Below are positions 1,975 to 59,869 of a stretch of DNA of 64,000 nt, piece by piece. This DNA is from Catellatospora bangladeshensis (lineage in GTDB: Bacteria; Actinomycetota; Actinomycetes; Mycobacteriales; Micromonosporaceae), in the NCBI RefSeq assembly GCF_016862575.1, contig NZ_BONF01000002.1, forward strand, positions 1 to 64,000, written 5' to 3'. The first letter of the stretch is position 1. Each line of letters begins with the position of its first letter. The translations under genes were made by a program, and so were the position numbers. The notes under the pieces were generated by a model. The model worked only from the letters and a program-made list of their open reading frames with translations, had not been told where the DNA came from and made no database searches.

Positions 1975-2029
1975 GTTAGGAAGGGCACCTTCTACACCGA
2001 CGTCCGTTAAGAGGGTGCCCTTGCTTTCA
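1975..2029 (-). repeat. Inverted repeat, family A, copy 1
   Basis: The arms AAGGGCACC and GGGTGCCCTT flank about 20 bp. On the minus strand it begins with the TGA stop codon of the aminotransferase gene (TGAAAGCAAGGGCACC) and ends with CCTAAC. It can form a strong hairpin after that gene and before the convergent-side DUF309 promoter. It is somewhat diverged from the other seven copies. Confidence 0.9.
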
Positions 2030-3298
2030 GAGGAGGGTGGGGCGGAGGGCGTTGTGGGCGGCGAGTTCGGTGAGGGCGGCGTTGAGCTGGTCGACGTGCT
2101 CGTCGGTGTGGGCCGCGGTGAGCTGCACGCGGAAGCCCACCTGGCCGCGCGGGACCAGGGGGTATGCGGCGAGCGTGACGTAGACGCCGTGGCGCCAGAG
2201 CAGGTCGGCGGCGTCCTTGAGGTCGTAGCCGGCCGACAGCGGCAGCTCGATGACCGGGGTGGCGTGCCGGTTGGGCGTGTGCACGCGCAGCTCGCGCAGG
2301 TGGGCCAGGACCCGGGCGGTGAGCCGGTGCAGGGTGGCGCGCAGCTCGTCGCCGCGCGAGTCGTTGACGTCGAAGCCGGCCAGCACCGCGGCCAGCGAGT
2401 GCACGGGGGACGGGCCGGAGTAGAGGTACGGCGGGGCGGCGAGTTTGAGTTCCTCCTTGAGCGCCGTCGGCACCGCGACGAACGCCAGCAGCGCCGAGTA
2501 CGCCTTGGAGAAGCCCCCGACGAGCACCACGTCGTCGTACGTCTCGGCGCAGTGGCGCACCACGGCGTTGCCGCGCGTGCCGTACGGCGTGCCGCCGCCC
2601 GCCCCGTCGCCCGTGCCGTCGCGCTCGCCGATCACGCCGAAGCCGTGCGCGTCGTCGACGTAGAGGAGCGCGCCCCACTCGCGGCATACCGCGGCGAGCC
2701 GGGGCAGGTCCGGGATGTTGCCGGTCATGCTGTTCACGCCGTCGAGGCAGACCACGCGGGGCCGGTCCGCGGCGGCCGAGCGCAGCAGCCGCGCCAGCTC
2801 GTCCGGGTCGTCGGCGTGCCAGCGGTAGAGCTGCGCGCCCAGGCCGCGGGCGTACGAGCCGCCGTCGTAGATGGTCTTGTGCGCGCTGGCCTCGACGAAC
2901 ACCGAGCCGCTGTCGACCAGCGCGGGCAGCACCGACATGTGGATGTGCGTGATGGTGGGCAGCACCAGGCTGTCGGGCGCGCCGAGCAGCTCGGTGAGCC
3001 GCTCCTCGATGTCGGGGTAGAGGCGCGGGTTGCCCAGCAGCCGCGACCAGCCGGGGTGGGTGCCCCAGCGGCGCACCGCCGCCTCACCCGCGGCGATGAT
3101 CTCGGGGTCCAGGTCGAAGCCGAGGTAGTTGCAGGAGGCGAAGTCGACCAGCCAGTGGTCGCCGATGCGGATGCGCCTGCCGTCCACCTCCTCGATGACG
3201 GCGTCGTACATAGGTGTCTGCGCGCGCAGCCGGTCCAGCTGATCGGTCGACGGCACCCGGTGCGCGTCGGGGGTGTGCACGCCGGATGCCTTCGTCAC
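2027..3298 (-). CDS. Alpha-oxoamine synthase family (AONS/CqsA-like) PLP enzyme
   Basis: The 423-residue fold-type I PLP enzyme belongs to the alpha-oxoamine synthase family (BioF, Kbl, serine palmitoyltransferase, CqsA), which condenses an acyl-CoA with an amino acid. Visible marks are the N-terminal FASCNYLGFDLDP, the cofactor-binding DDAHGFGVIG near residue 217 and the Schiff-base lysine in VGGFSKAYSA near residue 266. Residues 228-239 are a Gly-rich insertion. No biotin genes are nearby, so BioF is unlikely. The GTG start at 3298 has a GAGGAGG site 4 bp upstream. It lies 22 bp downstream of the GGDEF-EAL gene on the same strand and is almost certainly co-transcribed, which invites comparison with CqsA/LqsA-type signal synthases; that link is inference. 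Confidence 0.8.
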   Translation of the reverse strand: MTKASGVHTPDAHRVPSTDQLDRLRAQTPMYDAVIEEVDGRRIRIGDHWLVDFASCNYLGFDLDPEIIAAGEAAVRRWGTHPGWSRLLGNPRLYPDIEERLTELLGAPDSLVLPTITHIHMSVLPALVDSGSVFVEASAHKTIYDGGSYARGLGAQLYRWHADDPDELARLLRSAAADRPRVVCLDGVNSMTGNIPDLPRLAAVCREWGALLYVDDAHGFGVIGERDGTGDGAGGGTPYGTRGNAVVRHCAETYDDVVLVGGFSKAYSALLAFVAVPTALKEELKLAAPPYLYSGPSPVHSLAAVLAGFDVNDSRGDELRATLHRLTARVLAHLRELRVHTPNRHATPVIELPLSAGYDLKDAADLLWRHGVYVTLAAYPLVPRGQVGFRVQLTAAHTDEHVDQLNAALTELAAHNALRPTLL

Positions 3299-3320
3299 AC
3301 TGCCTCCTCGGAATCGGTGG

Positions 3321-8440: not shown

Positions 8441-8495
8441 GTTAAGAAGGGCACCTTCTACTACGCATAGCGTTAAGAAGGTGCCCTTCCTTCTA
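8441..8495 (-). repeat. Inverted repeat, family A, copy 2
   Basis: It is nearly identical to the family consensus. On the minus strand it begins with the TAG stop of the symporter gene (TAGAAGGAAGGGCACC), continues through a loop with CTATGCGTAG and ends AGAAGGTGCCCTTCTTAAC. It sits between two convergent genes and could terminate both. Confidence 0.95.
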
Positions 8496-10136
8496 TCGGG
8501 CGTGGGCGGGGGAGCGGGAGCGGCTGGGGGTCGGGCCGTCGATGAGGGCGTCGGAGTGGCGGGGGGCGGCGTCGCGGGCGTCGGCGTAGTAGTCGGACGG
8601 GCGGGTGGCGTCGAGGCCGGCGGGTACGCGCAGGCCGCGCAGGAGCAGGGTGCCGGCGACCACGACGAGCAGGTTGACGGCCAGGGCGAGCAGTCCGGTG
8701 TAGACGGTGGCGCGGGTGTCGAGGCCGAGCTGGGCCAGCGGGAGGTTGGAGCCGCCGAAGTGGGCCTTGAGGACGCGGCCGTCGGCGGCGCGCTGCGGGA
8801 TGTGGTACATCGCGAGCAGGCCGGTGCCCAGGCCGGTGAGCAGGCCCGCGGCCAGGGCGTAGCGGTGGAACCAGCCGGTCCACAGGCCGAGCACCACGGC
8901 GGGCACGGTCTGCAGCACGATGACGCCGCCGATCAGCTGCAGCTCGATGGAGAACTCCTGGTCGAGCAGCAGGATCGCGAGCAGCGCGCCGAACTTCGCC
9001 AGCAGCGACACCCAGCGGCTGACCCGGGCCTCCTCGGCGGGGGTGGCGCCGGGGCGCAGGTACTCCCGGTAGACCGAGCGGGTGAACAGGTTCGCCGCGG
9101 CGATGGACATGACCGCGGCCGGGATCAGCGCGGCCACCCCGATCGCGGCGTAGCCGATGCCCGCGCACCAGGCCGGGAACACCTCGTGGAACAGCTGCGG
9201 CACGACTGTGTTCAGGTCCCCGCCGACCGGGCGCACGCCCTGGCCGATGGCGAAGAAGCCGAGCATCGCCAGCAGCCCCAGGGCCAGGCAGTACACCGGC
9301 AGCGCGGCCGCGTTGCGCTGCACCGTGGCCCGGTCACGGGCGGCCAGGATGCCGGTCAGCGCGTGCGGGTACGCGAAGATGGCCAGCGCCGAGCCGATGA
9401 CCAAGGTCAGGTAGCCTGACCAGCCGCCCTCGGGCAGCAGCAGGCCGCTGGCCGGGGAGGCGTCGGCGGTGAAGCGCTCGCCCGCGCTCCGGAACGCCGC
9501 GACCCAGCCGCCGGACATGGCGACCAGCAGGATCACCGCGAGCACCAGCCACAGCAGCAGGATGTCCTTGGCGATGGACAGCAGCGCCGGGGCGCGCAGC
9601 CCGGACCGGAAGGTGCACACCGAGGCCACCAGGACGGCGGCGGCCAGCGGCCACTCGCCGGTGACGCCGAGCGTGGCGAACATCGCCCGCAGCGCGACGA
9701 GCTGCACCGCGATGTATGGCATGGTGGCCACGATCCCGGTGACCGCGACCAGCGCGGCCAGCCCGCGCGAGCCGAACCGGGCCCGGGTGAACTCGGCCGA
9801 GGTGACGAAGCCGTGCGCGTGCGACACCGACCAGGTGCGCGTGCTGATGACGTACGCCAGCGGCGCGCTGATGATGGCGAACGGCACCGCGAAGAAGCCG
9901 GCCGCGCCGACGCCGTACACCAGCGCAGGCACCGCGATGTAGGTGTACGCCGTGTACATGCTGCCGCCGAGCAGGAACCAGGTGACCCAGTTGCCGAAGG
10001 CGCGGCCGCCCACGCCCCACTCCTCCAGCGAGTGCAGGCTCGGCGGGCGGCGCCAGCGCGCGGCGAGGAAGCCGAGCAGCAGCATGGCGCCCAGCAGCAC
10101 GGTGAAGGTGCCGATCTCGACCTGGCGGGCGCTCAC
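8493..10136 (-). CDS. Sodium:solute symporter (MctP-like permease)
   Basis: The 547-residue integral membrane protein of the SSS family has about 13 hydrophobic helices. Family marks include WFLLGGSMYTAYTYIAVPALVYG in helix 2, SAEFTRARFGSRGLAAL, and the sodium-site region AALIPAAVMSIAAANLFTRSVY near residue 340. A DUF3311 protein encoded directly upstream, overlapping by 4 bp, is the arrangement known for monocarboxylate uptake permeases of the MctP type, so uptake of lactate, pyruvate or acetate is likely. The GTG start at 10136 uses the GTGA overlap and is probably translationally coupled. The last residues are a hydrophilic tail ending at a family A repeat. Confidence 0.88.
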   Translation of the reverse strand: MSARQVEIGTFTVLLGAMLLLGFLAARWRRPPSLHSLEEWGVGGRAFGNWVTWFLLGGSMYTAYTYIAVPALVYGVGAAGFFAVPFAIISAPLAYVISTRTWSVSHAHGFVTSAEFTRARFGSRGLAALVAVTGIVATMPYIAVQLVALRAMFATLGVTGEWPLAAAVLVASVCTFRSGLRAPALLSIAKDILLLWLVLAVILLVAMSGGWVAAFRSAGERFTADASPASGLLLPEGGWSGYLTLVIGSALAIFAYPHALTGILAARDRATVQRNAAALPVYCLALGLLAMLGFFAIGQGVRPVGGDLNTVVPQLFHEVFPAWCAGIGYAAIGVAALIPAAVMSIAAANLFTRSVYREYLRPGATPAEEARVSRWVSLLAKFGALLAILLLDQEFSIELQLIGGVIVLQTVPAVVLGLWTGWFHRYALAAGLLTGLGTGLLAMYHIPQRAADGRVLKAHFGGSNLPLAQLGLDTRATVYTGLLALAVNLLVVVAGTLLLRGLRVPAGLDATRPSDYYADARDAAPRHSDALIDGPTPSRSRSPAHAR

Positions 10137-10345
10137 CGCCGCCCCCGCCTGCTCAGCTGGTACACCAGCACGGTGACCGCCGTGGCCAGGAACGCGCAGC
10201 CCACCTGGTACCAGTAGAAGAACGGGATGCCCCACAGCCGCGGCTCCAGCCGGTCGTACAGGCCGACCGGCAGCGGCGCGAGGATCGGGATGAGCAGCAG
10301 CCACTGCCATCCGCGCCGTGCCGGACGTGCTCCGTGCTCGGCCAC
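10133..10345 (-). CDS. DUF3311 small membrane protein
   Basis: The 70-residue protein has two transmembrane helices (WLLLIPILAPLPVGL and FFYWYQVGCAFLATAVTVLVYQL). The conserved WGIPFFYWYQ segment identifies DUF3311, which accompanies SSS-family permeases in actinobacteria much as YhdT accompanies PanF. The GTG start at 10345 has AAGGAGG 5 bp upstream; longer open frame upstream lacks a ribosome site. It probably stabilises or modulates the symporter, but this has not been shown for the family to my knowledge. Confidence 0.88.
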   Translation of the reverse strand: MAEHGARPARRGWQWLLLIPILAPLPVGLYDRLEPRLWGIPFFYWYQVGCAFLATAVTVLVYQLSRRGRR

Positions 10346-21332: not shown

Positions 21333-24314
21333 ATGGTAAATGCATCGACAGTGCACATACCAACGGAGCGCGGCTCGTCCGGGCAGGTCGCGGTAGCGCC
21401 GCGCCCGGCGGCCCACCAGCTCCCGCTGCGCGGCCGCGAGCGCGAGCAGCAGACCGTCGCCGCGCTGCTGGCCGCCGCGGCGTCCGGCACCGGCGGCGCC
21501 CTCCTCCTGCACGGCGACCTGGGCAGCGGCAAGACCGCGCTGCTGCGCGCCGCCGCCGCGACCGTGCCCGAGGGCACCTGCCTGCTGGAGACCACCGGGC
21601 TCGCGGAGGAGGCCGACCTGCCATACGCCGGGCTGCAAGGCCTGCTCCAGCCGGTCACCGACCGCATCGCGCTGCTGCCCCCGCTGCAGGCGCGCGTGCT
21701 GACCGGGGCGCTGTCCGGCGCGGGCTGCGCCGACGGCGACCGGCTCGCCCTGGCCATGGCGGTGCTCACCCTGCTCGGCGAGCTGGGCCGGGAACACCTC
21801 GTGCTGTGCTGCGTGGACGACGTGCACGCGCTGGACCGGCCCTCCCTCGACGTCATCGCGTTCGTCGCGCGGCGGCTGCGCGCGCACCGGGTGGCCCTGC
21901 TGCTCGCCGCCTCCGCCGAGCCCGCGCTCAGCGGCGTACCACTGCTGCCCGTCCGCGAGCTGGACCCGCGCGCGAGCCGAACCATGCTCGCCGACCTGCT
22001 GCGCGGTGACGAACCGGACGGCCCGCTCACGGCCCACCTGCTGCGCGGCCATGTGCCGGACGGCCCGCTCCCGGCCTCCCCGCTGGGCGGCGACACGCTG
22101 GACGGCGGCCCGGCGGGCACGTCCCCGGCGCTCGGGTGCGCCGCCGGCCTGGAGGCGCTGCCCGGCGCGCTCGACGGCGACGGCGGTGACGGCGATCCGC
22201 TCGCGGCGCTGGCCGCGCTGGGCGGCGGCAATCCGCGCGCGCTGGCAGACCTCGCCGCCTCGCTCACCGACAGCCAGCGCCGCGGCGAGGCGCCGCTGCC
22301 CACCCGGCTGCCCGCCGACAGCGCGCTGCTGCGGGCATACCGCGCCCGCCTCGACCGGCTGCCCTCCGACACGCGCTGGCTGCTGCTGCTCGCCGCGGCC
22401 GACGAGGAGAACGACGCGGCCGGGCTGGTCCGCGCCGCGCTCGGGTCCGGAGTGGACATCGCCGCGCTCGCCCCGGCCGAGGACGCCGGGCTGGTCCGGG
22501 TCGGCCGGGGCGGCATCGTGTTCCCGCAGCCGCTGGCCCGCACACTGGCCTACGAGGAGGCGCCGCTGGCCCAGCGCCGCGCCGCCCACCTGCACCTGGC
22601 CCGCACGCTCGACCCCGACCGGGAGCGGCTGCGGCGGGCCGTGCACCTGGCCGCCGCCGCGTACGGACCCGACGCGCGGCTGGCCGCGGAGCTGGAGGAC
22701 GCGGCGGGCGACGGCGGTTACTCGCGCGCCTCGGCGGCACTCGAGCACGCCGCGCAGCTCACCACCGAACCCGCCGGAGCGGCCAGCCGCCTGGTCACCG
22801 CCGCCCGCTACGCCTGGCAGTCCGGCAGCCCGCACCGGGCCCGCAGCCTGCTGCGACGCGCTCACCCGGGGGCCCGAGACCGGGCCGCCACCGCCGAGAG
22901 CGAGGTGCTGTCCGGCGAGATCGAGCTGCGCGCCGGGGCCACCGTCAACGCCGTCGAGTCGCTGCTGTCGCTGGCCGACCGGCTCGCCGGCACCCGCCGC
23001 GAGCTGGCCGTGCTGGCGCTGCTGCGGGCCAGCGAGGCGGTCTGCTTCTCCGGCGACCACCCCCGCTACGTCGAGGTCGCCACGCGGGCGGCGGCGCTGC
23101 GCCGTCCCGGCGACCCCGCCGACCTGGAGGTGGTGTTCGAGCACATCGCCGGGTTCGGCGCGACGTTCCTCGGGCGCCACGACCGGGCGCTGCGGCCGCT
23201 GCGGCGCACCATCGACCTCGGCGCCGCGCTGGACAGCGCCGCCCCGCTCACCTGCGCCGCCGCGTCCGCGCTGCTGCTGGCCGACGACGTGGGCGCGCAC
23301 CGGCTCGCCGCCCGCGCGGTCGAGGTGGCCAGGGACACCGGCGACGTGTCCGCGCTGCCGCTCGCCCTGGAGATGGCCGCCTACGCCGAGTACTGGCTGG
23401 GCCGGTACGACGCGGCCGCCGCCACCAGCCTGCACGGGCTGCGCGCCGCGCGGGCCTGCGGGCAGGGCAACTACGCCGGGGACCACCAGGCGATGCTGGC
23501 GGTGCTCGCGGCCATCCGGGGCGAGCGCGAGCTGTCCCTGCGCCGCATCCGCGACATCGAGGTGGCGCCGGGCACCGGGCAGACCAACCGTCCCAAGGCG
23601 CTGAGCCAGTGGGCGCTGGCCGTGCTCGACCTGCTGGCCGGGCGGCCCGCCGACACGGTCACCAGGATCGCGGCGATCGCCTGCCCGCGTACCGGCCGGG
23701 GGCATGTCGTGGTGCAGGCCATGGCGACGCCATGGCTGGTCGAGGCCGCGGTCCGCGCCGACGGGCGGGAACAGGCCGTCGCGGCGCTGGCCGGATTCGA
23801 CGGGTGGGCCGCGTCCACCGGCGACCCGGTGCGCCGGGCGCTGTCGGCGCGCTGCCACGCGCTGCTCGCCCCGCGTGGCAGCGCCGCCGCCGAGGAGCAC
23901 TTCCAGCAGGCGCTGACGCTGCACCTGGCCGGGGAGGCCGACTTCGAACGCGCCCGCACCGAGCTGCTGTTCGGCCAGGAGCTGCGCCGCGCCCGCCGCC
24001 CCCGCGACGCGCGCGAGCACCTGCACCACGCGCTGGAGACGTTCACCCGCCTCGACGTGCCCGCCTGGACCGACCAGGCCCGCGCCGAGCTGCGCGCGGC
24101 GGGCGAGGCGGTGGACGCCCCCGCGGTCCGCGCCGCCGACGTCCTCACCGCTCAGCAGCTGCAGATCGCCCGCCTGGTCCGCGACGGCGCGACCAACCGC
24201 GAAGTGGCCGCCCACCTCTTCCTCAGCACCCGCACCGTCGACCACCACATGCGCAACATCTTCGCCCGCCTCAACATCCGCTCCCGCACCGAACTCGCCA
24301 AGGCCCTCACCTAG
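21333..24314 (+). CDS. LAL-type LuxR regulator with AAA ATPase
   Basis: The 993-residue protein begins with a signalling ATPase domain: Walker A GDLGSGKTALL near residue 65 and Walker B LVLCCVDDVHALD near residue 160. A long helical, probably TPR-like middle region follows, then a LuxR helix-turn-helix in the last 60 residues (LTAQQLQIARLVRDGATNREVA, TRTVDHHMRNIFARL). Large ATP-binding LuxR regulators (MalT/LAL type) are activators of catabolic or secondary metabolism genes. Residues 221-262 hold three 14-residue near-repeats. No good ribosome site precedes the ATG; TATAGG lies about 20 bp upstream, and TGCATC-GAC-AGTGCA at 21341-21355 inside the gene recalls the TetR operator. Confidence 0.88.
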   Translation: MVNASTVHIPTERGSSGQVAVAPRPAAHQLPLRGREREQQTVAALLAAAASGTGGALLLHGDLGSGKTALLRAAAATVPEGTCLLETTGLAEEADLPYAGLQGLLQPVTDRIALLPPLQARVLTGALSGAGCADGDRLALAMAVLTLLGELGREHLVLCCVDDVHALDRPSLDVIAFVARRLRAHRVALLLAASAEPALSGVPLLPVRELDPRASRTMLADLLRGDEPDGPLTAHLLRGHVPDGPLPASPLGGDTLDGGPAGTSPALGCAAGLEALPGALDGDGGDGDPLAALAALGGGNPRALADLAASLTDSQRRGEAPLPTRLPADSALLRAYRARLDRLPSDTRWLLLLAAADEENDAAGLVRAALGSGVDIAALAPAEDAGLVRVGRGGIVFPQPLARTLAYEEAPLAQRRAAHLHLARTLDPDRERLRRAVHLAAAAYGPDARLAAELEDAAGDGGYSRASAALEHAAQLTTEPAGAASRLVTAARYAWQSGSPHRARSLLRRAHPGARDRAATAESEVLSGEIELRAGATVNAVESLLSLADRLAGTRRELAVLALLRASEAVCFSGDHPRYVEVATRAAALRRPGDPADLEVVFEHIAGFGATFLGRHDRALRPLRRTIDLGAALDSAAPLTCAAASALLLADDVGAHRLAARAVEVARDTGDVSALPLALEMAAYAEYWLGRYDAAAATSLHGLRAARACGQGNYAGDHQAMLAVLAAIRGERELSLRRIRDIEVAPGTGQTNRPKALSQWALAVLDLLAGRPADTVTRIAAIACPRTGRGHVVVQAMATPWLVEAAVRADGREQAVAALAGFDGWAASTGDPVRRALSARCHALLAPRGSAAAEEHFQQALTLHLAGEADFERARTELLFGQELRRARRPRDAREHLHHALETFTRLDVPAWTDQARAELRAAGEAVDAPAVRAADVLTAQQLQIARLVRDGATNREVAAHLFLSTRTVDHHMRNIFARLNIRSRTELAKALT
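21993..22118 (+). repeat. Three tandem 42-bp units in the LAL gene
   Basis: Three successive 14-residue units read DLLRGDEPDGPLTA, HLLRGHVPDGPLPA and SPLGGDTLDGGPAG. The first two are close at the DNA level and the third is diverged. They lie in the linker after the ATPase core and look like a tandem expansion. Confidence 0.8.
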
Positions 24315-24324
24315 CGGGGCTCGC

Positions 24325-24403
24325 TTGATCCACCGACTTGCCGGGCAGATGGGCGTATCTTGACCGTCCATTCGCCCATGTGCCAGGCAAGTCGGCGGAT
24401 CTT
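24325..24403. repeat. Inverted repeat, family D, copy 1
   Basis: This 79-bp imperfect palindrome has arms GATCCACCGACTTGCC and GGCAAGTCGGCGGATC, inner arms GCAGATGGGCG and CGCCCATGTGC, and a TATCTTG-containing centre. The copy at 48797-48875 has the same length and order. It lies 10 bp after the LAL stop codon. Confidence 0.92.
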
Positions 24404-24456
24404 GGGCGGGCGTCGCCCGGGGGGCTCGTGAGTGGTCCGTGGCCGCGCCCGGATGC

Positions 24457-24527
24457 GTCCGCAGTTGCGGGGAAAGTGCACGAATGAGCGACGCCTTATC
24501 TGCACTTTCCCCGAAACTGGGGCGGAC
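24457..24527. repeat. Inverted repeat, family C, copy 2
   Basis: GTCCGCAGTTGCGGGGAAA, then GTGCA, and TGCACTTTCCCCGAAACT with GCGGAC make a 71-bp palindrome. It ends just after the alcohol dehydrogenase stop codon (minus strand) and is separated from the family D copy by 53 bp, so two different element types lie in one 217-bp gap. Confidence 0.9.
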
Positions 24528-24531
24528 GGGG

Positions 24532-25620
24532 TCAGGAGAAGAGGATGACCGAGCGGGCGCCTTCGCCGCGGGACATGCGGGCGAAGGCCTCCGGGGCCTC
24601 GTCGAGGGTGATCCGGTCGGTGATGAGCGCCGCCGGGTCGAGGTCGCCGGCCAGGACCTGGCGGGCCAGGCCGGGCAGGTCGCGGTCGGGGTCGGAGTTG
24701 CCGTACACCGACGAGCGCAGCGTGCGGGCCGAGTGGAACACGTCCAGCGCGGCGAGGCTGACCATGTCGTCCTTGGCGCCCATGCCGACGACGGTCACCT
24801 GGCCGCCGCGCCGGGTGGCCCGCCAGGCCGCGCGGATGGTCGCGGCCCGGCCCACGCACTCGAAGGCGTGATCCGCGCCGCGGCGTTCGGTCAGCCCGCG
24901 CACCTGGCCGCTCAGCTCGTCGCCGGAGACCAGGAAGTGGGTCGCCCCGGCGGCCAGGGCCAGCTCCCGCTTGGCGTCGGAGACGTCCACGGCGATCACC
25001 GCACCGGCCCCGGCGGCGCGCGCCGCCATCACCGTGGACAGCCCGACCCCGCCCAGCCCGATGACCAGCGCGGACTCGCCGGGCCGCAGCGCGGCGGTAC
25101 GCAGCACCGCGCCTACCCCGGTGAGCACCGCACAGCCGAGCAGCGCCGCGGTGTGGAACGGCAGCTCCTCGGGCACCGCGATGACGGCGTGGTCGCCCAC
25201 CACGACCTCCTCGGCGAGCGCGCCGAGACCGAGGGTGACGTTCAGTGGCGTACCGTCGGCGAGAGTGCCCCGGGGCGTGCTCGCGACGCCCGCGGTCTCG
25301 CACAGCCACGGCTGCTCGTGGGTGCAGAACCAGCAGCGGCGGCAGGGCGGCGCCCAGTTCAGCACCACGTGCGCGCCCACAGCGACCGACGCCTCCGGCC
25401 CCGCCGCGGTCACCACGCCCGCCGCCTCATGCCCCAGGACGAGGGGGTACGCCGCGGCGAGGGTCCCGTTCACCATGGACAGATCGGAGTGGCACACCCC
25501 GGCGGCACGGATGCGCACGCGCACGTCACGCGGACCGAGCTCGGGCAGCACGATCGGCTCGACGGCCAGCGGCGCCCCGGCCCCGTGGCAGACCAGCGCG
25601 CGTACCGTCGCGGCGCTCAT
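24532..25620 (-). CDS. Zinc-dependent alcohol dehydrogenase
   Basis: The 362-residue MDR-family enzyme has catalytic zinc ligands Cys43 and His64 (GVCHSD, GHEAAG), the structural zinc set Cys93, Cys96, Cys99 and Cys107, and the nucleotide motif GLGGVG near residue 190, followed by an Asp (VDVSD) favouring NAD. It resembles class III-type dehydrogenases acting on primary alcohols. Its ATG overlaps the aldehyde dehydrogenase stop by 4 bp, so alcohol-to-acid oxidation by the pair is likely. Confidence 0.92.
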   Translation of the reverse strand: MSAATVRALVCHGAGAPLAVEPIVLPELGPRDVRVRIRAAGVCHSDLSMVNGTLAAAYPLVLGHEAAGVVTAAGPEASVAVGAHVVLNWAPPCRRCWFCTHEQPWLCETAGVASTPRGTLADGTPLNVTLGLGALAEEVVVGDHAVIAVPEELPFHTAALLGCAVLTGVGAVLRTAALRPGESALVIGLGGVGLSTVMAARAAGAGAVIAVDVSDAKRELALAAGATHFLVSGDELSGQVRGLTERRGADHAFECVGRAATIRAAWRATRRGGQVTVVGMGAKDDMVSLAALDVFHSARTLRSSVYGNSDPDRDLPGLARQVLAGDLDPAALITDRITLDEAPEAFARMSRGEGARSVILFS

Positions 25621-29366: not shown

Positions 29367-29421
29367 GTTAAGAAGGGCACCTTCTACTACGGATAGCGTT
29401 AAGAAGGTGCCCTTCCTTTCA
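29367..29421 (-). repeat. Inverted repeat, family A, copy 3
   Basis: This full-length copy lies between the dehydrogenase stop and the SDR start. Its AAGGAAGGG end faces the SDR gene and ends 3 bp before that gene's ribosome site AGGGAGG. The TGA at this end belongs to no sense gene, making this one of the two copies not fused to a stop codon. Confidence 0.95.
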
Positions 29422-33375: not shown

Positions 33376-33428
33376 AAAGGAAGGGCACCTTCTTATCGTT
33401 TTCCGTAGTAGAAGGTGCCCTTCCTAAC
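33373..33428 (+). repeat. Inverted repeat, family A, copy 4
   Basis: It begins with the TGA stop of the acyl-CoA synthetase gene (TGAAAAGGAAGGGCACC). The loop reads TATCGTTTTCCGTAG, a variant shared in part with copy 7. The stem is intact. Confidence 0.95.
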
Positions 33429-39493: not shown

Positions 39494-41683
39494 GTGTCCC
39501 GACGCAACCGCCCCCTCGCCGCGGCGCTCGCCTCATTATTGCTGGCAGCGGGCCTCGCCGCCGCTGTCGCGGCCCGCCCCACACCCGGCCCCGACCTGGT
39601 CCCCGCCAAGGCCGACGCCAACCCGGGCAACCGTGACGTCATCGTGCATCTCTTCCAATGGCCCTGGGCCTCCATCGCGAGCGAGTGCACCAGCGTGCTC
39701 GGCCCGAAGGGCTACGGAGCAGTGCAGGTGTCCCCGCCGCAGGAGCACGTCGTGCTCGGCGGCCAGGGCTACCCCTGGTGGCAGGACTACCAGCCGGTCA
39801 GCTACCAGCTCGTGTCCCGCCGCGGCGACCGCGCCGCCTTCGCCAACATGATCACCACCTGCCACAACGCCGGGGTGAAGATCTATGTGGACGCGGTCGT
39901 CAACCATATGACAGGCGGCGCCTCCACCGGGACCGGCTCGGCCGGCTCGACGTACTCGCAGTACAACTACCCGGGGATCTATCAGAATCAGGACTTCCAC
40001 CACTGCGGCCGCAACGGCAACGACGACATCGTCAGCTGGGGCGACCGCTGGGAGGTGCAGAACTGCGAGCTGGTCAACCTCTCCGACCTGGCCACCGAGT
40101 CGAGCTACGTGCGCGGCAGGCTCACCGCGTACCTCAACGACCTGGTGTCGCTCGGGGTGGACGGGTTCCGGGTGGACGCGGCCAAGCACATGCCCGTCGC
40201 CGACCTCCAGGCGATCCTCGGCGGCGTCAGCGGCGCGCCGTACGTGTTCCACGAGGTGATCGAGGACAGCGCCTTCCCGCCCGGCGAGTACGCGGGCATC
40301 GGCGACGTCACCGAGTTCCGCTACGGCGACGTGGTCGGCAACGCGTTCCGTGACGCGAACCTGTCCAACCTGACCAACCTCGCCTCGCAGATGGCGCTGA
40401 GCAGCGGCGACGCCGTCAACTTCATCGACAACCACGACACACAGCGCAACGGGCGGGCCCGGCTCACCTACAAGGACGGGCAGACCCACGCGCTGGCGCA
40501 GGCGTTCAGCCTGGCGTACCCGTACGGCACGCCCCAGCTGATGAGCAGCTTCACCTTCACCAACCCGGAGGCCGGGCCGCCCGCCGCGAGCAACGGCACC
40601 ACCAACCAGGTGACCTGCGGCTCCGGCTGGGAGTGCGAGCACCGCCGCACCGTGGTGGCCAACCTGGTCGGCTTCCACAACGCGGTCAACGGCACCGGTG
40701 TCGGCAACTGGACCTCGCCGTCCTCGTCCCGCATCGGCTTCTCGCGCGGCAACATCGGCTATGCCGCGTTCAACCGCGACGGGTCGGCCTGGAGCACCAC
40801 CTTCAGCACCGGCCTGCCCGCCGGCGTGTACTGCAACGTGGCCACGGGCGACTTCACGGCCGGTGCCTGCTCCGGCAGCACGGTGACCGTGAACTCGTCC
40901 GGCCAGGCCACGGTCTCGGTGGCCGGCAACAGCGCGCTGGCGATCTACACCGGCGCGATGGTGAGCAGCTCACCCCAGCCCTCGGCCTCGGCCTCACCGT
41001 CCCCCAGTGGCACGGCGTGCACGACCGTCGCCGTCACCTTCGAGTCGAACACCACGACCACCACCGGGCAGAACGTGTACGTCGCGGGCAGCATCGCCCA
41101 GCTCGGCTCGTGGAACACGGCGAACGCCGTGGCCATGTCGAGCGCGGCGTACCCGCTCTGGCGGGTCACCGTGAACCTGCCGGCGGGCGCCTACTTCGAG
41201 TACAAGTACATCAAGAAGACCAGCTCGGGCACCGTGACCTGGGAAAGCATCGCCAACCGCAATCACACGGTCCCGACCGGCGCCTGCGCCGTGACCTACA
41301 GCGAGACCTGGAACGTGACCGGCGGCACCACCCCGTCCCCATCCGCCTCGCCGTCGGCGTCACCCTCGCCGAGCGGCACCGCTTGCGCGAGCATCGCCGC
41401 CGCGTTCTCGGTCAACGCCACCACGGTCTGGGGCCAGAACGTCTACGTGATCGGCTCCGTCCCCGCCCTCGGCAGCTGGAACACCGCCAGCGCGGTGGCC
41501 CTGTCCAGCGCGGCCTACCCCGTCTGGGCCGCGACGATCAACCTCCCGCCCGGCACCACCTTCACCTACAAGTACATAAAGAAGGACGCCTCCGGCAACG
41601 TCACCTGGGAGAGCGACCCCAACCGCTCCCGTACCACCCCCACCACCCCCTGCACCACCACCTACGCCGACACCTGGCGCTGA
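39494..41683 (+). CDS. amy: Secreted alpha-amylase with two CBM20 domains
   Basis: The 729-residue secreted GH13 enzyme has a signal peptide at residues 1-27. The catalytic barrel shows VDAVVNHM, DGFRVDAAKH (nucleophile Asp), FHEVIED (acid/base Glu) and FIDNHDTQR. An all-beta C domain ends near residue 490. A Ser/Pro linker leads to CBM20 number 1 (about 512-615), a second linker and CBM20 number 2 (about 630-729). The CBM20 modules have QNVYVAGSIAQLGSWNTANAVAM and QNVYVIGSVPALGSWNTASAVAL and bind raw starch. Two tandem CBM20 are unusual against the common single one. The GTG at 39494 follows AGGAGGA. The stop merges with a family A repeat. Confidence 0.95.
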   Translation: MSRRNRPLAAALASLLLAAGLAAAVAARPTPGPDLVPAKADANPGNRDVIVHLFQWPWASIASECTSVLGPKGYGAVQVSPPQEHVVLGGQGYPWWQDYQPVSYQLVSRRGDRAAFANMITTCHNAGVKIYVDAVVNHMTGGASTGTGSAGSTYSQYNYPGIYQNQDFHHCGRNGNDDIVSWGDRWEVQNCELVNLSDLATESSYVRGRLTAYLNDLVSLGVDGFRVDAAKHMPVADLQAILGGVSGAPYVFHEVIEDSAFPPGEYAGIGDVTEFRYGDVVGNAFRDANLSNLTNLASQMALSSGDAVNFIDNHDTQRNGRARLTYKDGQTHALAQAFSLAYPYGTPQLMSSFTFTNPEAGPPAASNGTTNQVTCGSGWECEHRRTVVANLVGFHNAVNGTGVGNWTSPSSSRIGFSRGNIGYAAFNRDGSAWSTTFSTGLPAGVYCNVATGDFTAGACSGSTVTVNSSGQATVSVAGNSALAIYTGAMVSSSPQPSASASPSPSGTACTTVAVTFESNTTTTTGQNVYVAGSIAQLGSWNTANAVAMSSAAYPLWRVTVNLPAGAYFEYKYIKKTSSGTVTWESIANRNHTVPTGACAVTYSETWNVTGGTTPSPSASPSASPSPSGTACASIAAAFSVNATTVWGQNVYVIGSVPALGSWNTASAVALSSAAYPVWAATINLPPGTTFTYKYIKKDASGNVTWESDPNRSRTTPTTPCTTTYADTWR

Positions 41684-41735
41684 AAGGAAGGGCACCTTCT
41701 TAACGCTATGCGTAGAGGAAGGTGCCCTTCTTAAC
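41681..41735 (+). repeat. Inverted repeat, family A, copy 5
   Basis: It begins with the TGA stop of the amylase gene (TGAAAGGAAGGGCACC), loop AACGCTATGCGTAG, ending AAGGTGCCCTTCTTAAC. The 282-bp gap to the convergent helicase gene also holds a family B and another family A copy. Confidence 0.95.
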
Positions 41736-41780: not shown

Positions 41781-41845
41781 ATGATCGGCGTTTCGTGTCA
41801 AGAAGTGCGGTCTGGCCACACCTTCTGACACGAAACACCGATCAT
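41781..41845. repeat. Inverted repeat, family B, copy 3
   Basis: ATGATCGGCGTTTCGTGTCA and TGACACGAAACACCGATCAT are 20-bp arms with one mismatch, and AGAAGTG/CACCTTCT pair inside. It lies between two family A copies. Confidence 0.95.
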
Positions 41846-41915
41846 GGCGAGCGCACCCGGCGCGTGGCCGCTGCGGGCGCGTCAGACCACCACAGGCACG
41901 GGCACAGGCCAAGGG

Positions 41916-41968
41916 GTTAACAAGGGCACCTTCCTCTACGCATAGCGTTAAGAAGGTGCCCTTCCTTA
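41916..41968 (-). repeat. Inverted repeat, family A, copy 6
   Basis: On the minus strand it begins with the TAA stop of the helicase gene (TAAGGAAGGGCACC) and ends AAGGTGCCCTTGTTAAC. With copy 5 it forms a facing pair at a convergent gene junction. Confidence 0.95.
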
Positions 41969-44134
41969 TCGCCAGGGGTGGGTGGCGATGGTGGTGAGGC
42001 GCTGGGTGGCGCGGGAGAGGGCGACGTAGAGGGTGCGCCTGCCCGCGTCGGTGCCGGCGTCGACGGCGCCGGGCTCGACCAGGACGACGGCGTCGTACTC
42101 CATGCCCTTCGCGGCCAGCGCGGTGACCACGCGCAGGCGGTCGGTGTCCCACTCGGACAGGCGGGCCCGGATCCGGTCCCGCGCCCGCGCGTCGGGGGCG
42201 ATCACGCCGACGGTGCCCTCGACCTCGGACAGCAGCGCGGCCACCGCGTCGCGCACCGCGCCGTCCAGCTCGGCGGCGGGCACCAGGCGGTGCACCGGCT
42301 CGATGCCGGTGGTCCGTACGGCCTTCGGCAGCGGCAGGTCCGGCGACACCTTCCGGATCACCTCGGCCGCCACCGCGAAGATCTCCGTCGAGTTGCGGTA
42401 GTTCGTGGTGAGCTGGTGCGGGTGCCGCTTGCGGCCGCCGAGCGCCTCGTCCCGGGCCCGGATCATCTCGTTGGCGCCGCCGATCCAGGCGGACTGGGCC
42501 GGGTCGCCGACCACGGTCCAGCTCGCCGCGTGCCCCCGGCGGCCGATCATGCGCCACTGCATCGGTGTGACGTCCTGCGCCTCGTCGACCACCACGTGCG
42601 CGTAGTCGCGGTAGTCGACCTCGCGCGGCGTGGCGGCCTGCGCGGCGCGGGCGCGCTCGTACACCGTCGCGGCCTCGCGGATGCCGCCCACCGTGAACGC
42701 CTCCCGCCTGCGCCTCTTCGGCTTGGGCTGGGTGCCGAGCAGGTCGTGCAGCTCGTCGAGCAGCGGCACGTCGTCGATGCTGGGGCCCTGCTCGCGCAGC
42801 GGCGCCAGGGCACGCGACAGCAGCTTCTGCTCCTCGTACGACAGGGTGCCCTCGGCGGCGCGGCGCAGCCGGTTCGGCTCGGCGAGCCAGCCCAGCACCT
42901 GCACCGGGCTCACGATCGGCCACCAGGCCTTGAGGAAGTCGCGGAAGCCCTCGTGCTCGGACAGCTCCTCGTCGAAGCGGGCCTGCTCCAGCCGCGGCTG
43001 TTTCGCCTTCATCCGCTCCCAGAGCAGGTCGAGCACGGCGCCGAACGCCTTCGCGCGGATCGCGTTGCGCGGGTTGCCGCGCCCGATCCGGCGGCGGATC
43101 TCCTCGCCCTCGTGGCGGGTCAGCTCCAGCCACTCGCCGCGGTAGCGCAGGCGCAGACCGTCGGGGTTGCCGGGCGGCGCGGCCTCGGCGGCGCGGCGCA
43201 GCACCCGGCGCATGCGCAGCGAGCCCTTCACGGCGCGTACGGCCGCCGTCTCCTCGCGGGTCGCGTCGAACCCGGGCACGAGCTGCCCGACGGAGCGCAG
43301 CGTGGCCGACTCCTCGCCGAGGGCGGGCAGCACCGTCTCGATGTACTCGACGAACACCGGCGACGGGCCGACGATCAGCACCCCGCCGCCCGCGAAGCGC
43401 GCCCGGTCTGCGTACAGCAGGTAGGCCGCGCGGTGCAGCGCGACGGCGGTCTTGCCGGTGCCCGGACCGCCCTCGACCATGGTCACCCCGGACGCGGGGG
43501 AGCGGATCGCCAGGTCCTGCTCGTGCTGGATGGTGGCGACGATGTCGCGCATGCCGGTGCCCTTGGCCCGGCTCAGCGCGGCGAGCAGCGCGCCGTCGCC
43601 GACCACCCGCATGCCCTCCGGCGCGGCCGAGGGGTCCAGCAGGTCGTCCTCGAGGCCGGTCACCTTCTCGCCGAACGACGAGATCATCCGGCGGCGGATC
43701 ACGCCCAGCGGCTGCGCGGCGGTGGCCCGGTAGAAGGCCGCCGCGGCCGGGGCCCGCCAGTCGATCAGCAGCGGCTCGGCCGTCTCGGTGCGCACCCCGA
43801 GACGCCCGATGTAGCGTGGCCGCTCGGCCCACGCCGCCGCCTCCGGGTCGGCCGCGACCTCGTCGGCGCCCGCCCCGCTGTGATCGGGGTGCATGTCGAG
43901 GCGGCCGAAGACCAGGCCCTCGTGCTCGGCGTCGAAGGCGTGCCGGCGCCGGGCCGCGTGGAACACCATCGCGTCGCGCTCGACCAGTGAGCCGTACGTG
44001 CCCACCCGGGCGAGTTGATAACCGTCGGCCTCGGCCTTCGCGGCGTCGGCGCGCAGCCGCGCGAGCCGCGCGTACACGCGGTCCACGTGCTGCTGCTCGA
44101 TGGCGATCTCGTCGTGCAGGGTGTTGTCAGACAT
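41966..44134 (-). CDS. helD: HelD-like RNA polymerase-associated helicase
   Basis: The 722-residue UvrD/Rep-like SF1 protein of the HelD type has an N-terminal coiled coil (residues 1-60, probing the polymerase secondary channel in known structures), DWRAPAAAAFYRA, Walker A GGPGTGKTAVALHRAAYLLY near residue 220, DEAQDVTPMQWRM and motif VI YVALSRATQRL at the C-terminus. HelD frees stalled RNA polymerase from DNA; actinobacterial class II members include HelR, which protects against rifamycins. The ATG at 44134 follows GGGAGAC. The leader has half of a rifamycin-element-like palindrome (44149-44168). Single-gene unit. Confidence 0.88.
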   Translation of the reverse strand: MSDNTLHDEIAIEQQHVDRVYARLARLRADAAKAEADGYQLARVGTYGSLVERDAMVFHAARRRHAFDAEHEGLVFGRLDMHPDHSGAGADEVAADPEAAAWAERPRYIGRLGVRTETAEPLLIDWRAPAAAAFYRATAAQPLGVIRRRMISSFGEKVTGLEDDLLDPSAAPEGMRVVGDGALLAALSRAKGTGMRDIVATIQHEQDLAIRSPASGVTMVEGGPGTGKTAVALHRAAYLLYADRARFAGGGVLIVGPSPVFVEYIETVLPALGEESATLRSVGQLVPGFDATREETAAVRAVKGSLRMRRVLRRAAEAAPPGNPDGLRLRYRGEWLELTRHEGEEIRRRIGRGNPRNAIRAKAFGAVLDLLWERMKAKQPRLEQARFDEELSEHEGFRDFLKAWWPIVSPVQVLGWLAEPNRLRRAAEGTLSYEEQKLLSRALAPLREQGPSIDDVPLLDELHDLLGTQPKPKRRRREAFTVGGIREAATVYERARAAQAATPREVDYRDYAHVVVDEAQDVTPMQWRMIGRRGHAASWTVVGDPAQSAWIGGANEMIRARDEALGGRKRHPHQLTTNYRNSTEIFAVAAEVIRKVSPDLPLPKAVRTTGIEPVHRLVPAAELDGAVRDAVAALLSEVEGTVGVIAPDARARDRIRARLSEWDTDRLRVVTALAAKGMEYDAVVLVEPGAVDAGTDAGRRTLYVALSRATQRLTTIATHPWR

Positions 44135-49504: not shown

Positions 49505-49559
49505 GTTAAGAAGGGCACCTTCTACTACGGAAAACGTTAAGAAGGTGCCCTTCCTTCTA
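49505..49559 (-). repeat. Inverted repeat, family A, copy 7
   Basis: On the minus strand it begins with the TAG stop of the carboxylase gene (TAGAAGGAAGGGCACC), loop AACGTTTTCCGTAG, and ends AAGGTGCCCTTCTTAAC. Confidence 0.95.
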
Positions 49560-50960
49560 GAGGGGGATGTTGCTGTGGGCGCCGCGGGCGGCGGGGGCGG
49601 CGGCGAGGGCCTCGGCGATGCGGCGGCGGGAGTCGGCGGGTTTGATGACGTCGTCGACCACGCCGATCTCGACGGCGCGGTTGACGCCGCCGGCGTTGCG
49701 GGTCTGCTCCTCGACGAGGCGGGTACGCAGCTCCTCGCGTTCGGCGGCGGGGGCGGCGGCCAGTCTGCGGCGGTGCAGGATGTTCACCGCGGCGCCCGCG
49801 CCCATGACGGCGACCTCGGCGTTCGGCCAGGCGAAGACGGCGCTCGCGCCGAGCGCGCGGGAGTTCATCGCGATGTACGCGCCGCCGTACGCCTTGCGGG
49901 TCACCAGGGTCACCCGGGGCACGACCGCCTCGGCGAACGCGTGCAGCAGCTTCGCGCCGCGGCGCACCACGCCGTCCCACTCCTGGCCCAGGCCGGGCAG
50001 GTAGCCGGGCACGTCGACCAGCACGATCAGCGGCACGCCCAGCGAGTCGCACATGCGCACGAAGCGGGCCGCCTTCTCGGCGGCGGCCGAGTCGAGGCAG
50101 CCGCCCAGGCGCATCGGGTTGTTGGCCACGACGCCCACGGTGCGGCCCGCGAAGCGGCCCAGCGCGGTCACCACGTTCGGCGCCCACTTGGCGTGCAGCT
50201 CCACGCCGGGCTCGTCGAGCAGGGCCGCGACCACCGGCTTGACGTCGTACGCGCGGTTGAACGCGGCGGGCATGGACGCGGACAGGTCGCGGTCGTCGGT
50301 CACGTCGGCCGGGACGAGCCGCCCCTGCCTGCCCAGCAGCCGGGCCAGCCGGCGCGCCTCGGCCAGCGCCGCGTCGTCGTCCTTGCAGGTCAGGTGGACC
50401 ACGCCGGAGCGCTTGCCGTGGGCTTCGGGGCCGCCCAGGCGCTCCATGTCGACCTGCTCGCCGGTGACGGAGCGGACCACCTCGGGGCCGGTCACGAAGA
50501 TCCGGCCCGCGTTGCTCATGATCACGATGTCGGTCAGCGCCGGCCCGTACGCGGCACCGCCGGCCGCGGGGCCGAGCACCACGGAGAGCTGCGGCACGCG
50601 GCCCGAGGCGCGCACCATCGCCGCGAACACCTGGCCCACCCCGTCCAGCGCCGCGACGCCCTCGGCCAGCCGGGCGCCGCCGGAGTGCCACAGGCCGACC
50701 ACCGGCAGGCGCTCGCGCACCGCGGTGTCGATGGTGTCCACGATGTGCCGGCAGCCGTCGGCACCCAGCGCGCCGCCCATGGTGGTGGCGTCGGTGGCGA
50801 AGGCGACCGCGGGCATGCCGTCGATCTCGCCGCGCGCGCTGCTCACACCGGAGCCGTCGGCGGCGGTCAGCGCGCGTACGGTGCCGGCGTCGAACAGGGA
50901 CCGCAGCCTGACCTGCGGATCGCGGTGGTCGACGGCGGCGCCGGCCGAGGTCGGGGTCAT
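49557..50960 (-). CDS. accD: Acyl-CoA carboxylase beta (carboxyltransferase) subunit
   Basis: The 467-residue carboxyltransferase has the crotonase-like double domain: GLWHSGGARLAEGVAAL and the oxyanion loop SVVLGPAAGGAAYGPALTD in the N-half, VGVVANNPMRLGGCLDSAAAEKAARFV and RKAYGGAYIAMNSRALGA in the C-half. It transfers carboxyl from biotin to acetyl- or propionyl-CoA; the alpha subunit is not in the window. It is somewhat shorter than PccB (about 520-530). Gene order after fabF matches actinobacterial fab clusters, so malonyl-CoA supply for FAS II is likely. AGGAGACCCGG precedes the ATG. Confidence 0.9.
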   Translation of the reverse strand: MTPTSAGAAVDHRDPQVRLRSLFDAGTVRALTAADGSGVSSARGEIDGMPAVAFATDATTMGGALGADGCRHIVDTIDTAVRERLPVVGLWHSGGARLAEGVAALDGVGQVFAAMVRASGRVPQLSVVLGPAAGGAAYGPALTDIVIMSNAGRIFVTGPEVVRSVTGEQVDMERLGGPEAHGKRSGVVHLTCKDDDAALAEARRLARLLGRQGRLVPADVTDDRDLSASMPAAFNRAYDVKPVVAALLDEPGVELHAKWAPNVVTALGRFAGRTVGVVANNPMRLGGCLDSAAAEKAARFVRMCDSLGVPLIVLVDVPGYLPGLGQEWDGVVRRGAKLLHAFAEAVVPRVTLVTRKAYGGAYIAMNSRALGASAVFAWPNAEVAVMGAGAAVNILHRRRLAAAPAAEREELRTRLVEEQTRNAGGVNRAVEIGVVDDVIKPADSRRRIAEALAAAPAARGAHSNIPL

Positions 50961-57524: not shown

Positions 57525-57750
57525 AGCCGCCCCGTTTCGTGCGTCACCTGGTGCCAGTGTGACCGGTGGTACCCCAGTAAGACCCACGGCGAACCCGTTC
57601 GGTTGCAGATCGGATAGTCACGTTTCAGACACGGTTCACACGGTGCCCGGTTGGTCACGAAAACCGCACGTCAACTGGCCGGGAACCAAACCGGCCGGTA
57701 GCGTCGACCAACTGCGGAATGCGGTGGAGCATAACGAAGCGGAGGCGATC

Positions 57751-58353
57751 GTGGGGGACAGTATCCAGCGGCCGGGACGGCGGCGGCGGGCCCGGCTCGG
57801 CGGGGCGATGATCGCCCTGGCGGCGGCCCTCGGCGCGCTGCTGCTCGGGGCGAGCCCGGCCTGGGCGCACAACTCGCTGGTCGAGGCCACACCCGCGAAG
57901 AACGCCACGCTGGCCGCACCTCCCGCGCAGGTGAAACTGCGCTTCCTCGCGACGCTGAAGAGCGACGGCACCAAGCTGACGGTGACCGGTCCGGACGGGG
58001 CCGCGGCGGCGGGCGCCACGGCGGTCAGCGGCAAGGCCGTGTCCGCACCGTTCACCGGCACGGCGGGCGGCGCCTACACGGTGGCGTACGAGGTGCTGTC
58101 CCAGGACGGCCACCTCATCAAGGGGTCCTACAAGTTCACCCTGGACACGGCGGAGAGCGCCGCGGCGAGCCCGACCGCGGTGCCGTCGCCGGCCGCCCCG
58201 TCCTCGGCGGCGCCGTCCACCGTGGCCGCCGCCCCCGCGGCGGACACCGAGGAGGAGACCCCGTGGGGCCCCTGGATCGGTGGCGCCGTGGTGGCGGGAC
58301 TGGTGGTCGGCGGTCTGATCAGCTTCGTCAGGCAGCGTCGGGCGAAAGCCTGA
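57751..58353 (+). CDS. CopC domain copper-binding protein
   Basis: The 200-residue exported protein has a long signal peptide (to about residue 39) cleaved before His, giving the [11 protein letters not shown] start of mature CopC with its N-terminal copper-binding His. [17 protein letters not shown] (second conserved Asp-x-His) follows. A Pro/Ser/Ala linker and a C-terminal membrane helix anchor it. Copper trafficking outside the membrane is likely; the usual CopD partner is absent. GTG at 57751 follows GGAGG by 5 bp. Its 3' end overlaps the gltX 3' end by 26 bp. Confidence 0.9.
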
Positions 58354-59764
58354 CCAGCCGCTGCAGGGTGCGCTCGCGACCGAGCACCTCCAGCGACTCG
58401 AACAGGGGCAGGCCCACGGAGCGGCCGGTGACGGCGACGCGGACCGGGGCCTGCGCCTTGCCCAGCTTGAGGCCGTGCGCCTCGCCCACGGCGACGACGG
58501 TGTTCTTCAGTGACTCGGTGTCCCAGGACGGCAGCCCGCGCAGCGCGGCGATCACGTCCGGCAGGATGCCCGCGTCCTTGGACGCCTTGGCCCAGGACGC
58601 CTCGTCGATCACCGGCTCATCCACGAAGAGGAAGTCCACGTAGGACGGCACCTCGGACAGCACCGCGATGCGGGTCTGCACCAGCTCCGCGACCTGCGCG
58701 AACACGGCCGGGTCGTACCGGTCGGCGTCCCACGGCGGCGGCGTTACGCCGTACCCGCGCTCGGCCCGCTCCTCCTCGGTCGGGAACGGCCCGGTCAGCC
58801 ACGGCGCGCACGCCTGCGTGAACTCTTCCACGCTCAGCGCCCGGATGTACTCGCCGTTGAACGCGCGCAGCTTCTTCTCGTCGAAGAAGGCGGGGGAGGG
58901 GTTGACCTCCTCCAGGCGGAACTCGTCCTCGATCACCGACCACGGCACGATCTCCCGGTCGCCGCTGGGCGCCCAGCCGAGCAGCATCAGGTAGTTGCGC
59001 ATGGCGGCGGCGAGGTAGCCCTCGTCGCGGTACATCTCCAGGGCGACCTTGTCGCGGCGCTTGGACAGCTTCTGCCGCTTCTCGTTCACCACGACCGGCA
59101 CGTGCGCCCAGACCGGCGGGGTGTGGCCCAGCGCCTCCCACAGCAGCTGCTGCTTGGGGGTGTTGGGCAGGTGCTCCTCGGCCCGGATGACGTGGGTGAT
59201 CCCCATCGTCATGTCGTCCACGACGTTGGCCAGCAGGAACACCGGCGAGCCGTCGCCGCGCGCGATGACGAAGTCCTCGATCAGCTTGTTCTCGAAGGTC
59301 GGCTCGCCGCGGATCAGGTCGACGACCTTGGTGACACCCTCGTCCGGGGTGCGGAAGCGCAGCGCGCGGCCCTCGCCCGGGGGCAGGCCCCGGTCGCGGC
59401 AGAAGCCGTCGTAGCCGGAGTACTTGTTGTCGGTACGCGCCTGCACGTCGTCGCGGGTGCAGTCGCAGTAGTACGCCCGGCCCGCGTCGACCAGCTGCTG
59501 GGCGGCCTTGGTGTGCTCGGCGTGGTACGCCGACTGGAACAGGGGCCCCTCGTACGTGTCGCGGGCGATGCCGATCCACTCCAGCGCGGAGAGGATGCCC
59601 TCGGTCCACTCGGGGCGGTTGCGCGCCGCGTCGGTGTCCTCGATCCGCAGCACGAACACGCCGCCCTGCTGCTTGGCGAAGACCGCGTTCTGCAGCGCCG
59701 AGCGGGCGCCGCCGACGTGGAACATACCGGTCGGGGAAGGGGCGAATCGCACACGTACCGTCAC
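58328..59764 (-). CDS. gltX: Glutamyl-tRNA synthetase
   Basis: The 478-residue class I synthetase has the HIGH-type motif [18 protein letters not shown] at the N-terminus, the KMSKS-type motif KLSKRRDKV near residue 240, and Cys residues YYCDC and GFCRDRG of the zinc-binding insert. It charges tRNA-Glu (and possibly tRNA-Gln, later amidated). GTG at 59764 gives the natural start [13 protein letters not shown]. Its stop lies inside the 3' end of the convergent copC-like gene. Confidence 0.96.
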
Positions 59765-59816
59765 GGCTTCCAGGGTACGGCCCGCCCCCGCCCACCCCGC
59801 CACCAGGTTTACCGAC

Positions 59817-59869
59817 GAAGGAAGGGCACCTTCTTAACGCTATGCGTAGAAGAAGGTGCCCTTCTTAAC
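59817..59869 (+). repeat. Inverted repeat, family A, copy 8
   Basis: Full-length copy (GAAGGAAGGGCACC, loop AACGCTATGCGTAG, AAGGTGCCCTTCTTAAC) between gltX and the glycosyltransferase gene. Here the glycosyltransferase stop lies 3 bp beyond the other (TTAAC) end, so it is not fused to a stop codon at the AAGG end as in six others. Confidence 0.95.

Follow-up and report, generated by a model that had tools for sequence, protein, structure and literature searches.

A dispersed family of hairpins behind the stop codons of Catellatospora bangladeshensis: candidate transcription terminators at gene 3′ ends

Family A elements in the window

The window, i.e., the whole stretch of DNA analysed here (64,000 nucleotides, positions 1 to 64,000 of contig NZ_BONF01000002.1 of Catellatospora bangladeshensis), carries eight copies of an imperfect palindrome, designated family A, each lying at the end of a gene (Table 1). 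All eight near-identical elements reported in a first-pass annotation were recovered by a pattern search of the window, with displacements of at most 4 bp, and 100 shuffles gave no match to either arm pattern. The conserved block is 52 bp long, not 54 bp as first described, and comprises AAGG, a 42-nt core and CYTAAC; the same two ends delimit it in 159 distinct sequences. Read in the A orientation, the block is organised as AAGG-AAGGGCACCTTCT-16 nt-AGAAGGTGCCCTT-CYTAAC, where 13-nt inverted arms flank an inner part of 16 nt, which in many copies folds into a short second stem. The commonest inner core is CGCTATGCG, with CGTTTTCCG being rarer in C. bangladeshensis.

Table 1. Family A copies in the window and their relation to neighbouring genes
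Feature	Position	Strand	Relation to gene
Family A copy, most worn (AAGC, one arm base changed)	1975-2026	-	Adjacent at its AAGC end to the TGA stop of aminotransferase gene 2027-3298(-)
Family A copy flanked by convergent stops	8441-8492	-	Adjacent at its AAGG end to the TAG stop of symporter gene 8493-10235(-)
Family A copy	29367-29418	-	Stop of acyl-CoA dehydrogenase gene 28214-29356(+) lies 10 nt before the TTAAC end
Family A copy	33377-33428	+	Separated by 1 nt from the TGA stop of AMP-binding enzyme (acyl-CoA synthetase) gene 31855-33375(+)
Family A copy, first of convergent pair	41684-41735	+	Abuts TGA stop of amylase gene 39494-41683(+)
Family A copy, second of convergent pair	41916-41967	-	2-nt overlap with TAA stop of helicase gene 41966-44134(-)
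Family A copy	49505-49556	-	Abuts TAG stop of carboxyl transferase gene 49557-50960(-)
Family A copy	59818-59869	+	Stop of gene 59873-61480(-) (PMT_2 domain) lies 3 nt from the TTAAC end

The products of the six genes on which the first description focused (aminotransferase, symporter, acyl-CoA synthetase, amylase, helicase and carboxylase) were confirmed by Pfam. At these genes, AAGG had been said to begin within the stop codon itself. This is the case for the 41916 copy only, the block following the stop directly in four genes and after 1 nt in one; the description applies more widely only when the variable GA or AG preceding AAGG is counted as part of the element. The further statement that the TTAAC end never faces the stop is correct for the six genes, but the 29367 and 59818 copies face their nearest stop with this end. 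The TTAAC end of the 8441 copy lies 10 nt from the stop of a gene on the + strand ending at 8430. No match to Rfam at gathering score was obtained within the window, and no published description of family A was found among open-licence PMC papers, in agreement with the first-pass annotation.

Position and polarity at gene ends

The positions of the copies were surveyed with a simple codon-model gene caller on 938 kb, comprising 458 kb of C. bangladeshensis and 480 kb of the nearest species, G007. This sequence contains 66 copies, two inside a called gene and 64 outside, the latter being mostly orthologous between the two species and thus not 64 independent events. An arm is found within 20 nt of a stop codon in 55 of these 64 copies and within 6 nt in 29, compared with 11% and 3%, respectively, for 80,000 random intergenic placements. 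The values for C. bangladeshensis alone are 27 and 14 of 31 copies. The copies have a gene 3′ end as neighbour in 62 of 64 cases (68% under the null). With regard to position, the view that these elements are more than chance terminators and are strongly tied to gene 3′ ends is supported.

The polarity, previously described as fixed, is a bias and not a rule: the nearest stop is faced by the A-end in 48 of 61 copies and by the T-end in 13 (p about 8e-6 if copies were independent), with one further copy being unclear and two having no stop neighbour. Five gaps between convergent genes contain two copies (one in C. bangladeshensis, four in G007), and in all five each A-end is directed towards its own gene. 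This 5/5 agreement suggests a function that acts on RNA and is strand-specific and particular to each gene.

The stop codons next to the elements also differ in composition, TAA being commoner there (11/32) than at other genes (20/344) in the 458 kb of C. bangladeshensis; the enrichment extends to stops without contact to the element. At two places of C. bangladeshensis (C8 236275-236316 and C8 322332-322373), inspection by eye suggests that the gene has lost its own stop relative to G007 and that the frame runs to a stop provided by the element or its edge.

Copy number and distribution

The exact two-arm pattern gives 176 matches per strand in the C. bangladeshensis genome, where a single copy can match both strands, and the reversed-pattern control gives none. 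An oriented pattern gives 191 matches; of the 100 listed, three places are perfect palindromes and were counted twice. The genome carries about 190 copies or more. Their two units are almost always together, 130 of 139 units being paired in the 938 kb of C. bangladeshensis and G007, and one solo unit is present in G007.

The exact arms are present in 10 of 11 Catellatospora genomes and were absent from all 30 further genomes searched. A looser pattern, leaving the centre of the arm free, matches in 61 of 300 genomes of the Micromonosporaceae, a family rich in antibiotic producers; some single matches may be due to chance, and the reversed control gives one match in each of two genomes. These 61 genomes represent 8 of 44 genera and include G009, which has no exact arms. 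In two other genera, an arm is located within 20 nt of a stop at 13 of 16 loci, as judged with the gene caller trained on Catellatospora. Occurrence outside the Micromonosporaceae was rejected as background, since the loose pattern gives one match each in 2 of 244 order-mates and the reversed control likewise in 2 of 244.

Orthologous sites and concerted evolution

The comparison with G007, which is about 95% identical, covered about 5% of the C. bangladeshensis genome, and anchors were available in G007 for 32 copies of C. bangladeshensis. A full-length counterpart exists at the matching place for 29 of them; of the other three, one is split by an insert, one lies at a rearranged gene end, and one is a direct-repeat copy that has shrunk to a single unit. 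This last copy (C8 390416-390457) has both arms in one orientation in C. bangladeshensis, and G007 has one unit there, as a deletion between direct repeats predicts. The occurrence of identical elements at matching places in every relative, which the first-pass annotation had equated with a lack of mobility, is thus partly observed, both in the 29 of 32 places shared with G007 and at the end of gene 28214-29356, where a copy is found in 9 of the 10 species with data. At other gene ends, however, copies come and go.

The sequences at these fixed places evolve unevenly. Over the 29 pairs, the arms differ at 16 of 754 positions (2.1%), whereas the inner part differs at 91 of 464 (19.6%), or 83 of 464 when the inverted pair at the 59818 place is flipped; for comparison, 10363 of 134001 third codon positions (7.7%) and 2847 of 46642 intergenic positions (6.1%) differ between the two species. 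The inversion reflects the opposite orientation of the G007 counterpart of the 59818 copy. The change in the inner part has a direction: AACG in C. bangladeshensis corresponds to ATCG in G007 at 13 of the 29 sites and the reverse is never seen, while 12 sites have the same class and four belong to neither. Both classes coexist in both genomes, with hand counts among the copies listed of 81 AACG and 16 ATCG at the first 97 distinct places of C. bangladeshensis and of 31 AACG and 69 ATCG at the first 100 of G007, and many intermediate inner sequences exist. The nearest match of a C. bangladeshensis copy is another copy of the same genome in 17 of 29 cases, the ortholog in 7, and a tie in 5. At the end of gene 28214-29356, the arms are of the C-type in G009, one of each type in G004, and of the A-type in seven other species. 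Together with the counts of inner classes, these arm types show that orthologous places take the version of their own genome. This suggests that copies overwrite one another's sequence, by copying between loci, while their places at gene ends remain.

At the gene end at 33375, the family A hairpins of G007 and of G010 are interrupted by one and the same palindromic insert of about 30 nt, which is absent in C. bangladeshensis, G003, G002, G005 and G006. In the G004 ortholog of gene 49557-50960, a segment of about 28 bp from the end of the gene, stop included, is tandemly duplicated just before the element, which is the single hint in favour of the earlier idea that gene ends are copied together with the element.

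Replacement by other hairpins

We compared 10 gene ends in 8 gaps at which family A occurs in at least one of 11 species, with 99 species-places in all. Family A was detected at 40 of these. The 59 remaining places have a different strong hairpin in 36 cases (shuffled: 2 of 59) and no other hairpin in 23, at least three of which hold a split or missed copy (gene 31855-33375 in G007 and G010, gene 49557-50960 in G004). At the 59818 place, four more distant species exhibit an unrelated hairpin, and in the convergent gap 24314-24532 the hairpins of nine species belong to four unrelated families, two of these assignments having been made by eye. This suggests that hairpin families at gene ends are interchangeable in function.

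Such hairpins are also common within C. bangladeshensis. Among the 287 gene 3′ ends of its 458 kb with a gap of at least 12 nt, family A lies within 45 nt of 34, and another strong hairpin is present at 81 of the remaining 253, compared with 9 of 253 after shuffling and 5 of 68 divergent gaps. One-off hairpins mostly start 0-20 nt past the stop. As they lie similarly near stops, stop proximity is a habit of hairpins in this genome and no proof of stop-directed insertion.

Further dispersed families of gene-end hairpins were seen in the window (24314-24532, 45774 onward and 41790-41900) and at C8. These comprise GACTTGCCTGGCA...TGCCAGGCAAGTC, found at up to 9 places in the 458 kb, GATCGC-GTCTCGTGTC..., found at 4-8 places, and CGAAGCTCCC...GGGAGCTTCG. 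At about C8 311,355-311,390, C. bangladeshensis has a single one-off hairpin where G007 has two convergent copies; it keeps the outer arm cores and looks as if two family A copies had fused.

The comparison of insertion edges at orthologous sites proposed in the first-pass annotation yielded no clean pair of an empty and a filled site, empty sites usually holding another hairpin. No target duplication, such as a MITE of a known insertion sequence would leave, was seen in the site alignments, which offer no clean empty site. The overlap with the stop codon was considered as an insertion signature and rejected, since the distance between stop and arm drifts among orthologs (5, 14, 14, 13 and 7 nt for gene 31855-33375; 4, 5, 9, 17 and 9 nt for gene 39494-41683). 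Insertion aimed at stop codons, one of the explanations originally put forward, is not supported, given these varying gaps, the one-off hairpins at similar distances and the lack of a clean empty/filled pair.

Folding and predicted function

RNA folding of the eight window copies gives energies of -24.2 to -36.8 kcal/mol, with z values of -3.0 to -7.3. Judging from 35 distinct sequences, the arm helix is conserved: the arm pair 7-36 shows a compensatory change, with A-U in 20 sequences, C-G in 15 and no broken case, and the covariation score is 0.113 compared with 0.054 for shuffled sequences, with none of 500 shuffles scoring as high. Paired cells amount to 87.8% (83.5% shuffled). Two of the five covariation measures are within the shuffle range, "pairs changed on both sides" being matched by 40 of 500 shuffles and "further pair types" by 178 of 500, and much of the covariation may go back to a single ancient event that copying has spread. 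The inner stem is broken or imperfect in many copies.

A stable hairpin soon after the stop, as expected of an intrinsic terminator, is present. A U-rich tract right behind the stem is absent, the tail CYTAAC having only two to three U. The poor U-tract bars only the classical type, as U-poor terminators exist. A second point counts against termination: hairpins located 2-6 nt past the stop would sit under the terminating ribosome. Considering the strong folding, the stop proximity, the convergent gaps in which each gene has its own copy, and the presence of other hairpins at the same gene ends in relatives, the stop-linked terminator that had been among the initial suggestions is the best functional reading of family A, and these hairpins probably end transcription.

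Origin and function of family A

We consider it somewhat better than an even bet that family A consists of dispersed 3′-end hairpins, likely acting as bidirectional intrinsic terminators with a weak U-tract, which exchange sequence between fixed gene-end loci. According to this model, a palindrome of about 50 bp would sit a few nucleotides after the stop codon, and its transcribed arms would pair into a helix of 14-17 bp capped by the short inner stem. The helix would stop RNA polymerase and/or protect the mRNA end and could be used in either direction. Copies would persist at gene ends for long and trade sequence by gene conversion or templated copying between loci, so that homogenisation of the arms and of the inner part would follow a separate course in each species; in the long run, a copy could be lost from its gene end, which would then bear a hairpin of a different family. 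Most likely, transcription ends at the element, and copying between loci, rather than selection, causes the likeness of the copies. Against this reading, 13 of 61 copies face their nearest stop the other way. With regard to copying, the intermediate inner sequences would also be expected from stepwise mutation under selection, and homologous recombination (RecA) would have only short arms of 13-20 bp to act on.

An alternative that we regard as unlikely is a REPIN-like non-autonomous mobile element whose transposase has been lost or escapes recognition and whose bias towards stops results from selection against other insertions. Family A indeed has two inverted palindromic units with a spacer, paired in the proportion given above as in REPINs, and its high copy number, its presence or absence between species, the inverted copy at the 59818 place and the solo unit in G007 would all fit. 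However, the Y1 transposase (PF01797), present in 6 of the 11 genomes of the genus, is absent from the draft genome of C. bangladeshensis (99.69% complete) and from G004, G006, G008 and G009, and none of the nine Y1 loci examined holds an element. The GTAG or CGTC tag is absent from the block ends in 159 distinct sequences, an inner CGTAG being common in C. bangladeshensis and G007 and unconserved elsewhere, and neither a target duplication nor a clear new insertion between these two species was seen. With tag and transposase missing, we do not file family A as a REPIN, but it may still spread or homogenise like one.

Less likely still is a species-specific trans-acting factor, such as an RNA- or DNA-binding protein, a 3′-end processing activity or a ribosome-linked control of the upstream gene, that keeps the copies alike without copying. 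The slower change of the arms relative to intergenic DNA (2.1% vs 6.1%) and the enrichment of TAA stops are consistent with such a factor. Hairpins right past the stop could also act on translation, and REPs located no more than 15 nt downstream of an ORF have been singled out as candidates for a role in translational control (PMC12306157). A species-specific binding partner would explain much of the likeness, but less readily the presence of both inner classes side by side in each genome; moreover, the inner part converges within species although it changes at three times the rate of synonymous sites, and the swap for unrelated hairpins speaks against a sequence-specific partner.

Paired DNA uptake sequences used as terminators, which the short repeat in inverted pairs at gene ends might recall, are very improbable and were rejected since the units, a few hundred in number, are nearly always paired. 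That ordinary intrinsic terminators of independent origin became alike by chance or base composition has next to no likelihood: one-off hairpins do occur at similar distances from stops, but the near-identical 42-nt cores repeated about 190 times, with no match in the reversed-pattern control, refute independent origin, although a terminator function may still apply.

Going beyond the preferred reading of hairpins that exchange sequence between fixed loci, one can speculate that gene ends of the Micromonosporaceae are contested by interchangeable families of terminator hairpins, in which overwriting within a family proceeds by a dedicated, templated homing of hairpin into hairpin, with no REP transposase. 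We hold this to be improbable, more so than either the mobile-element or the trans-acting-factor explanation. If true, it would let a species rewrite its terminators genome-wide within about 5% divergence without moving them. Gene conversion among dispersed palindromes has long been proposed for REPs, reportedly by Higgins et al. in 1988 (cited in PMC2267715), but the comparison of orthologous sites is rarely as clean as here, with unique flanks of 95% identity, frozen arms and an inner part switched as a block in one direction. Family A opens two testable questions, namely how homogenisation comes about among very short dispersed repeats, with arms of 13-20 bp, and how one terminator takes the place of another in evolution. 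For annotators, it would be a marker of transcription-unit ends.

Comparison with known systems

Among actinobacteria, the MIRUs of mycobacteria are intergenic repeats that overlap stop and start codons. They are longer, direct tandem units located in operons, whereas family A forms hairpins at transcription-unit ends.

REPs and REPINs resemble family A more closely, as they share short palindromic units, an inverted pair with a spacer, many copies outside genes, a single-strand hairpin and rare singlets, the last being described for REPINs as remnants (PMC8049555). In addition to the missing tag and transposase, family A differs in being tied to stops, rewritten in place and confined, in the genomes searched, to one bacterial family.

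In Neisseria and Pasteurellaceae, a repeated sequence likewise builds the stem of many gene-end hairpins, paired uptake signals forming terminators there; uptake signals are mostly single and number about 1,000 or more (PMC1852404). In contrast, family A units are almost never alone and far fewer, and they have no U-rich tail and no known link to transformation.

Finally, the I-shaped (U-poor) intrinsic terminators of GC-rich actinobacteria share with family A a strong GC-rich stem past the stop and a poor U-tract, and 3′ ends lacking U are described for Streptomyces clavuligerus (PMC8269248). I-shaped terminators are unrelated in sequence from gene to gene, whereas family A is one sequence placed at about 190 genes.
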